In this document: positions 54,503-56,929 of the stretch, one piece after another | Layout: each line of letters starts with the position of its first letter | Numbering within the stretch: the first letter of the stretch is position 1 | Origin: Hufsiella ginkgonis | GTDB taxonomy: Bacteria; Bacteroidota; Bacteroidia; Sphingobacteriales; Sphingobacteriaceae | DNA length: 64,000 nucleotides | Direction: 5' to 3' | Assembly: GCF_009834915.1 (NCBI RefSeq) | Contig: NZ_WVHS01000002.1 | Coordinates: 558,001-622,000 of the forward strand | Made by a program: the position numbers and the translations under genes | Notes under the pieces: generated by a model | The model's input: only the letters and a program-made list of their open reading frames with translations | Told to the model about the DNA's origin: nothing | Databases searched by the model: none

Positions 54503-54847
54503 TCAAAACAAACTAATCACCTGCTGTTGCTGCGCCGCGTGGCGGGTAAACATCACCTTTTCATAATTTAAGCCGATAGAAAGATCAAGCCAATCCGGGT
54601 TTACCGGGCGTATCAACCGTTCTTTTTGCATACGTGTAAACCTGCTGATTAATTTAAAACGCTGCAAGGCGGTTTCCTCTGAGTTGAGCTCCTCAAAATA
54701 AACGAGCCGCGTTAATTGCTGACCCGAATCAAAGAACAGGTTGGGCATTTCCCTGTAAAACTTCATGGTTTTCGCCAGGTCGGCGCTCATTCCTACATGC
54801 AGCGAGCTGCGGTTTCGGTCGGTCACTACATATACATACTTTTTCAT
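54503..54847 (-). CDS. GIY-YIG-like nuclease domain protein
   Basis: The 114-aa protein has the GIY-YIG-like opening YVYVVTDRNRSSLHVGMS and the family's later part (LVYFEELNSEETALQRFKLISRF, RLIRPVNPDWLDLS). The usual GIY and YIG triplets are degenerate (VYV, HVG) and R/E/N positions are only partly clear, so catalysis is uncertain. It is divergent from a LexA-like repressor and shares its regulatory region, so it may be a target of that repressor. DNA-repair use is speculation. Confidence 0.7.
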   Translation of the reverse strand: MKKYVYVVTDRNRSSLHVGMSADLAKTMKFYREMPNLFFDSGQQLTRLVYFEELNSEETALQRFKLISRFTRMQKERLIRPVNPDWLDLSIGLNYEKVMFTRHAAQQQQVISLF

Positions 54848-54872
54848 TATTATATTGCTTAATTGTTGCCGG

Positions 54873-54887
54873 ACTAATTGTATTAGT
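54873..54887. promoter_or_regulatory. Palindromic operator-like site ACTAAT-TGT-ATTAGT
   Basis: Perfect 6-bp arms with a 3-bp spacer, immediately upstream of the -7 word at 54889-54896. It shares the core CTAA/TTAG with the site at 54935. Confidence 0.65.
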
Positions 54888-54888
54888 T

Positions 54889-54896
54889 TATTTTTG
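54889..54896 (+). promoter_or_regulatory. -7 promoter element TATTTTTG of the LexA-like repressor
   Basis: An exact -7 word located between operator-like palindromes. Transcription would start near 54902, leaving a leader of about 70 nt that contains further half-sites. Confidence 0.65.
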
Positions 54897-54911
54897 CTGT
54901 GTTAAAAATAT

Positions 54912-54953
54912 TTACTAATTTTATGAGCATAAAGTTACTAACTAATTTAGTAA
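54912..54953. promoter_or_regulatory. TTACTAA half-site and TTACTAA-N5-TTAGTAA palindrome
   Basis: The half-site is at 54912-54918 and the 19-bp palindrome with perfect 7-bp arms at 54935-54953. Both lie downstream of the predicted start of transcription, where a bound repressor would block elongation. Confidence 0.65.
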
Positions 54954-54971
54954 ATCCAAATTTATTTTAAA

Positions 54972-55827: not shown

Positions 55828-56298
55828 ATGAAAAAAGTACTATTTATTGTTGCTCTGCTGGTAAGCACAGCTTCATTAAGCATGGCTCAGGGTGGTGGTC
55901 AAGGCGGCGGCCGTCCGATGGGAACTCCGGAAGAAAGAGCAAAAATGACAATTGACGGTCAGCGTCTTACTTCGCTGGCGCTTACCGATGACCAGAAAGC
56001 CAAATTGCTTCCGTTGCTGGTTAAGGCTAACAAGTCCATAGATAGCTTAAGAGCTACAGCTCCACAGGGCGACAGGGATGCTATGATGGCTCTTATGCCA
56101 AAAATGACGGCTTTTACCGCTCCGGCAGAAACCGCGCTTATTTCATGGTTAACTCCAGAGCAGAAAAAAGCTTATGATGCTGCATTGGCAGCTGCAAAAG
56201 AAAGAAACCCCAATGCTACAGGCATCCTTGGTGGCGGCTTCGGCGGCAGAGGTGGCCAGGGTGGCGGCCAAGGCGGTCAGCGTCCGGCTAACAACTAA
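55828..56298 (+). CDS. Periplasmic Spy/CpxP-like protein with glycine-rich tail
   Basis: The 156-aa protein has a signal peptide (after SMAQ near 21), GGGQGGGRP, a helical core (35-125) with TDDQKAKLLPLL and LTPEQKKAYDAAL, and a Gly/Gln-rich tail (about 133-156). The helical core resembles Spy/LTXXQ-type periplasmic chaperones and related Bacteroidota proteins. It is 80 bp downstream of the repressor gene and could be in its regulon. Confidence in the family is moderate. Confidence 0.6.
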   Translation: MKKVLFIVALLVSTASLSMAQGGGQGGGRPMGTPEERAKMTIDGQRLTSLALTDDQKAKLLPLLVKANKSIDSLRATAPQGDRDAMMALMPKMTAFTAPAETALISWLTPEQKKAYDAALAAAKERNPNATGILGGGFGGRGGQGGGQGGQRPANN

Positions 56299-56319
56299 TT
56301 AAAGTCGTTAGGACTTAAG

Positions 56320-56348
56320 AGCCCCCGGCCAATGGCCGGGGGCTTTTT
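56320..56348 (+). terminator. Intrinsic terminator after the first Spy-like gene
   Basis: An 11-bp G+C-rich stem (AGCCCCCGGCC with GGCCGGGGGCT) and 3-nt loop, followed by TTTTT. Confidence 0.9.
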
Positions 56349-56542
56349 GCTTGGGCATAACTGTGGGGAAGGACTATGGATCATGTAATATTATCGGGTA
56401 GATCCGGCCTATTCCTCCTCCTTTTGTGGCTCTCCCAAGATTTATCGCATGATCCACTGCTACTCTTTAACACTTTTTAACACTCTCCCGCTTAAACCAT
56501 CGTCGTTTCATACACTCTATCATATATACAAAAACAAGAGAT

Positions 56543-56929
56543 ATGAAGAAGTTAATGATCACCGCCGCACTGTTCCTGGCCGTTACCGGGGCAGCCATGG
56601 CACAAACGGGTCCCGGAAAAAGAGAGCAGGCGACCCCGGAGCAACGCGCAGAAAAAATGACCGCTCACCTGGATAAAAGCCTTTCGCTATCTTCCGCCCA
56701 ACGCGAGAAAATATACGCCATTAATCTTGACCGCGCTAAGACTATGAACGGAAAGCGCGGAAAAGCAGACAAACAAGAGTGGAAAAAATCGGCGGAAGCC
56801 AACGAAAACAAATTGCTTTCCGTGTTAAATAGCGACCAGAAAAAAGCATACCAAAAAATAAAGGCAGATCGCCATGCTAAACATGCCGGCCGAAAAGGCA
56901 AAAACCATCCCGGTAAGCAGAAAGTGTAG
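56543..56929 (+). CDS. Periplasmic Spy/CpxP-like protein, basic
   Basis: The 128-aa protein has a signal peptide (after AMAQ near 21), TPEQRAEKMTAHLDKSLSLS and NSDQKKAYQKI motifs and a strongly basic tail. It is related in style to the gene just upstream, from which it is separated by a terminator. Spy-like proteins bind unfolded proteins in the periplasm; here the function is inferred. Confidence 0.6.
   Translation: MKKLMITAALFLAVTGAAMAQTGPGKREQATPEQRAEKMTAHLDKSLSLSSAQREKIYAINLDRAKTMNGKRGKADKQEWKKSAEANENKLLSVLNSDQKKAYQKIKADRHAKHAGRKGKNHPGKQKV

Follow-up and report, generated by a model that had tools for sequence, protein, structure and literature searches.

A putative non-canonical LexA repressor of Hufsiella ginkgonis and its divergent GIY-YIG-like neighbour, probably not an active nuclease

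Within the 64,000-nucleotide stretch of the Hufsiella ginkgonis genome that was analysed (the window), a gene for a LexA-like repressor and a gene for a small GIY-YIG-like protein are read divergently from one intergenic region. As the preliminary description of this DNA had it, the second gene (ORF 54503-54847, minus strand) reads away from the first across exactly 124 bp. The following features were assigned to the locus.

54503..54847, minus strand: 114-aa protein with a predicted, catalytically degenerate GIY-YIG fold, encoded divergently from lexA
54873..54887 (core 54874-54886), no strand: distal operator ACTAATTGTATTAGT, upstream of the -33 element and nearest the GIY-YIG-like gene
54893..54896, plus strand: probable -33 element TTTG of the lexA promoter, 19 bp before TAATTTTA
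54915..54927, no strand: middle operator CTAATTTTATGAG, with one core mismatch, overlapping the -7 element and identical with the half-site TTACTAATTTTATGAG of the preliminary description
54916..54923, plus strand: probable -7 element TAATTTTA of the lexA promoter; almost all aligned promoters of the family have TAAYTTTA
54935..54953 (core 54938-54950), no strand: proximal operator TTACTAACTAATTTAGTAA, between the promoter and the lexA start codon
54972..55748, plus strand: putative non-canonical LexA, 258 aa, with HTH (residues 8-62), S24 domain (130-218), cleavage bond A106-G107 and dyad S143/K182

Searches with Pfam profiles found HTH_3 (PF01381) in the N-terminus of the repressor (5.6e-12, 46 bits; cut-off 23) and Peptidase_S24 behind it (2.9e-6, 27.4 bits; cut-off 23.3), the HTH being of the XRE/phage-CI type. 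The bond A106-G107 and the residues S143 and K182, which had been picked out from the sequence beforehand, are all present and were invariant in 19 family orthologues, as was much of the HTH. A single full-length copy of the repressor could be found in the genome (next-best match 8.6e-10), which also encodes one RecA. The LexA winged-helix DNA-binding domain (PF01726) had no match when the whole genome was searched; the same profile matched 10 of 14 control genomes, E. coli and B. subtilis among them. With a phage-CI-type HTH in N-terminal position, and with no LexA winged-helix domain encoded in the genome, the repressor is not canonical LexA. The earlier reading of a LexA-like, autoregulated repressor, cleavage-competent as judged by residues and domains, is supported.

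By its domains, catalytic residues, operator and regulon sites, the repressor belongs to the non-canonical LexA family of Bacteroidetes, in the group that recognizes CTAA-N5-TTAG. This family was described in 2021 by Sanchez-Osuna et al. (PMC8565304), whose main text reports binding of CTAA-N5-TTAG by the Pontibacter actiniarum repressor, established by EMSA and mutagenesis, a mitomycin C-inducible regulon for that repressor, and the occurrence of non-canonical LexA with large regulons in Sphingobacteriaceae. The likeness to the system as set out there covers the CI-type HTH joined to S24, the Ala-Gly bond, the Ser-Lys dyad, the operator and autoregulation, the frequent presence of two or more sites per promoter, and a regulon with dinB, imuA-imuB, splB and an exonuclease-GIY-YIG gene. 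As regards the repressor, a known kind of regulator, the locus adds another genome to those with the SOS system already described.

A CI-type HTH would also suit a prophage repressor or a single-locus repressor, a remnant that controls its own divergent pair only, and the RstR phage repressor profile was matched in part (58 bits, against a cut-off of 80). Such a reading is nonetheless highly improbable. The preliminary description had noticed no phage genes around the pair, and none were seen in the 21 kb inspected here (window 43-64 kb; ORF inspection, with four ORFs scanned against Pfam). The repressor gene is kept in nearly all complete genomes of the family, mostly at 55-83% identity, and its sites stand before unlinked repair genes, as described below. 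With no phage genes seen in those 21 kb, and with conservation throughout the family, a prophage origin of the present locus was rejected.

In the 124 bp region, two perfect palindromes and a half-site had been described. All three exist, with the palindromes at 54873-54887 and 54935-54953, and all three are copies of one CTAA-N5-TTAG motif; a division into two palindrome classes was ruled out on this ground. ACTAATTGTATTAGT and TTACTAACTAATTTAGTAA both hold the motif exactly and are its sole exact copies in the 64 kb window. In 20,000 randomized versions of the 124 bp (mononucleotide shuffling), two copies never arose, and a single copy arose in 0.5%. For comparison with relatives, two overlapping sets were used, namely 58 loci sampled from the family and 80 named loci, the latter largely from Pedobacter and Daejeonella. 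The core of the proximal operator is exact in all 80 named loci and in all but four of the 58 family loci; in four loci it is the middle site that is exact, and the proximal one imperfect. The centre of the middle site lies 23 bp from that of the proximal site in 49/58 family loci and 80/80 named loci, and this constant spacing suggests cooperative binding at the two sites. An exact distal site is found in some relatives only and is missing from many.

The Bacteroidota -7 consensus is TAnnTTTG, and the sequence TAAYTTTA contained in the middle site fits such an element. By eye, the TTTG-N19 arrangement could also be seen in several orthologous promoters, and TTTG-N19-TAATTTTA is probably the lexA promoter. 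An earlier candidate, TTG-N20-TATTTTTG (54866-54896), was dropped because it is TTTG-N19-TAATTTTA that recurs in the aligned promoters.

The genome was searched for further sites, a check that had been proposed with the preliminary description. Exact CTAA-N5-TTAG cores numbered 25, compared with 48 for a reversed control; by itself, then, the core shows no genome-wide over-representation. The extended form WTRCTAA-N5-TTAGYAW occurred 11 times, as against once for the reversed control, a contrast that is somewhat favourable to the extended motif because its exact flanks were picked after the sites had been seen. Ten of these 11 sites coincide with the start of a gene or stand shortly in front of it. 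The genes concerned are the repressor itself; a Y-family polymerase (dinB-like); an ORF followed by an IMS-domain gene, which were assigned as imuA-imuB by gene order, the first ORF being without a Pfam match; a radical-SAM gene (splB-like by sequence); a radical-SAM/helix-hairpin-helix gene; a 2OG-Fe(II) oxygenase (AlkB-like); and genes for a DUF763 protein, a 2'-5' RNA ligase-like protein, a Panacea-domain protein and a DUF3072 protein. An exonuclease-GIY-YIG gene, also a target in the main text of PMC8565304, has a core site in front of it as well, and for recA one-mismatch sites only were found. The additional sites before dinB, imuA-imuB, the splB-like, exonuclease-GIY-YIG, AlkB-like and other genes mark the repressor, as far as operator sequences can tell, as the master gene of an SOS regulon that extends over the genome. 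What had been taken for a small DNA-damage-responsive module is thus no small, isolated one, since its sites precede unlinked repair genes across the genome.

Four observations were made in passing on individual sites. The sole other exact TTACTAA-N5-TTAGTAA in the genome precedes the 2'-5' RNA ligase-like gene (L133:6844-7437, C12). The Panacea (SocA-like) antitoxin-domain gene and a short gene downstream of it (L132:4480-5555, C1) have their extended site ~40 bp upstream and are a candidate SOS-controlled toxin-antitoxin operon. The DUF3072 gene, of 88 residues (L130:1001-1291, C19), begins just after the site TTACTAAATATATTAGCAT and is possibly a new SOS gene. Alongside the eleventh extended site (L056:1501, C19) there is no recognisable target gene.

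The divergent partner scored 18.6 bits with the Pfam GIY-YIG profile, below the gathering cut-off of 22.6. Its homology was upheld despite this score by profile comparison, in which hhalign against canonical GIY-YIG paralogues gave 99.3% probability, and by a predicted structure of moderate confidence (pLDDT 75), the best matches of which were UPF0213 and Slx1. By prediction, the partner has the GIY-YIG fold of Slx1 and of the small GIY-YIG nucleases (COG2827/UPF0213-like), with 32% identity to canonical paralogues in the same family; a search of solved structures by sequence with the partner profile gave no match. The designation as a GIY-YIG gene in the preliminary description accordingly holds for the predicted fold, but the catalytic residues are lost. 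At the positions of the second Tyr, the Arg and the catalytic Glu the protein has H17, T27 and F64, and all three residues are replaced in all 56 family members aligned, the second Tyr by His in 42, the Arg by Thr in 43, and the Glu by Phe in 44 and otherwise by Leu, Tyr or Lys. In 15 canonical paralogues, by contrast, Tyr and Glu are present in 15/15 and Arg in 14/15. The partner has conserved residues of its own, TDRNR, FFD and RLVYFEE, that set it apart from canonical GIY-YIG nucleases. A beta-clamp motif in the C-terminal tail (QVISLF here) was, by eye, not common to relatives.

With its catalytic residues lost, the partner is not expected to cleave DNA by the usual chemistry; that the divergent GIY-YIG gene probably encodes no active nuclease is what is new here. 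It might still be an active, SOS-induced endonuclease that carries out its chemistry with other residues; the predicted fold, the retained Asn and first Tyr (Y/F), and the position adjoining an SOS repressor would all suit such an enzyme. The replacement of second Tyr, Arg and Glu throughout the 56 members, set against their retention in the canonical paralogues, makes this quite unlikely. In six pairs of related species, dN was ~0.01-0.04 and dS 0.5-1.1 (dN/dS ~0.02-0.04), and this low dN relative to dS points to strong purifying selection on a protein that is maintained and not decaying.

Conservation of the pair in relatives, also proposed as a check, was borne out. Two outcomes that had been named as refuting, namely a lack of further sites in the genome and a lack of the pair in relatives, thus did not arise. 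Of the 58 family loci sampled, 56 have the partner opposite lexA, in one case at a distance of 1.3 kb, and it is divergent from lexA in 80/80 named loci, a figure that measures linkage and not presence because these loci were chosen by similarity to the partner. In 20 lexA loci examined in other families no partner gene was found, whereas the repressor is class-wide in distribution; the class-wide matches to the partner profile beyond the family (E ~1e-18 or weaker) resemble ordinary GIY-YIG proteins. Both family loci that lack the partner belong to one genus and have a Y-family polymerase homologue in the same slot, divergent from lexA (L117:300-1409 and L118:297-1409). As judged by eye against this genome's own polymerase, the catalytic acidic motifs of these homologues look broken (HLRPDNFF / HLRPENFY, DRF).

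No conserved promoter for the GIY-YIG-like gene could be found by eye, and its SOS control consequently rests on operator proximity. This, and the lack of a perfect distal site in many relatives, would be expected if the gene were not SOS-regulated but a constitutive neighbour held by synteny. Such an explanation is considered unlikely in view of the shared intergenic region, which as a whole spans 85-144 bp in most family loci and holds two or three operators, and of the polymerase homologue that takes the same slot where the partner is missing.

It is considered very likely that a single non-canonical LexA represses itself, its divergent partner and a dispersed SOS regulon, and that cleavage derepresses all of these; the partner is most likely a binding protein. 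In undamaged cells, repressor dimers would lie on CTAA-N5-TTAG sites. At their own promoter they would occupy the site downstream of the transcription start and, probably cooperatively, the weaker site over the -7 element, as well as the distal site facing the divergent gene, so that both the repressor and the GIY-YIG-like gene would be limited. Once DNA is damaged, RecA filaments would prompt the S143/K182 dyad to cleave the A106-G107 bond, with release of lexA, the GIY-YIG-like gene and the dispersed SOS regulon. Repression and cleavage by this repressor are put forward on its close agreement with the tested system. The SOS-induced partner would act by binding and not by cutting, and would either modulate the repressor or RecA or bind branched or damaged DNA; it is put forward as a co-repressed SOS protein.

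For such an arrangement, the UmuDAb-DdrR pair of Acinetobacter offers a parallel, in which DdrR is a co-repressor encoded divergently from UmuDAb (PMC7273328, PMC11332147). There too, an S24 repressor is divergent from a small lineage-restricted gene with one shared operator region, but the likeness is one of position and a functional analogy only, with a putative function for the partner in the present case. Tentatively, the partner may have been recruited from a nuclease as a dedicated co-regulator of non-canonical LexA, one that would bind to the repressor, to RecA filaments or to damaged DNA. If so, it would tune the SOS response in Sphingobacteriaceae and be functionally analogous to DdrR.

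A literature search on GIY-YIG, LexA and Bacteroidetes found only PMC8565304. In the main-text sections of that paper that were compared, the small GIY-YIG-like partner and the fixed 23 bp pair over the -7 element were not found; its supplements may list the partner. The less expected part of the locus is this neighbour with a predicted GIY-YIG fold and lost nuclease residues, kept beside the master repressor almost throughout Sphingobacteriaceae and held under strong selection after those residues had been replaced, which makes it a concrete candidate accessory factor in the SOS response under non-canonical LexA. The family includes cultured genera, and many of the loci compared are from Pedobacter. 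On the 3' side of the repressor, two small genes were observed (window 55828-56929), one LTXXQ/Spy-like and one with DUF4890, and similar-looking genes lie near lexA in several relatives.
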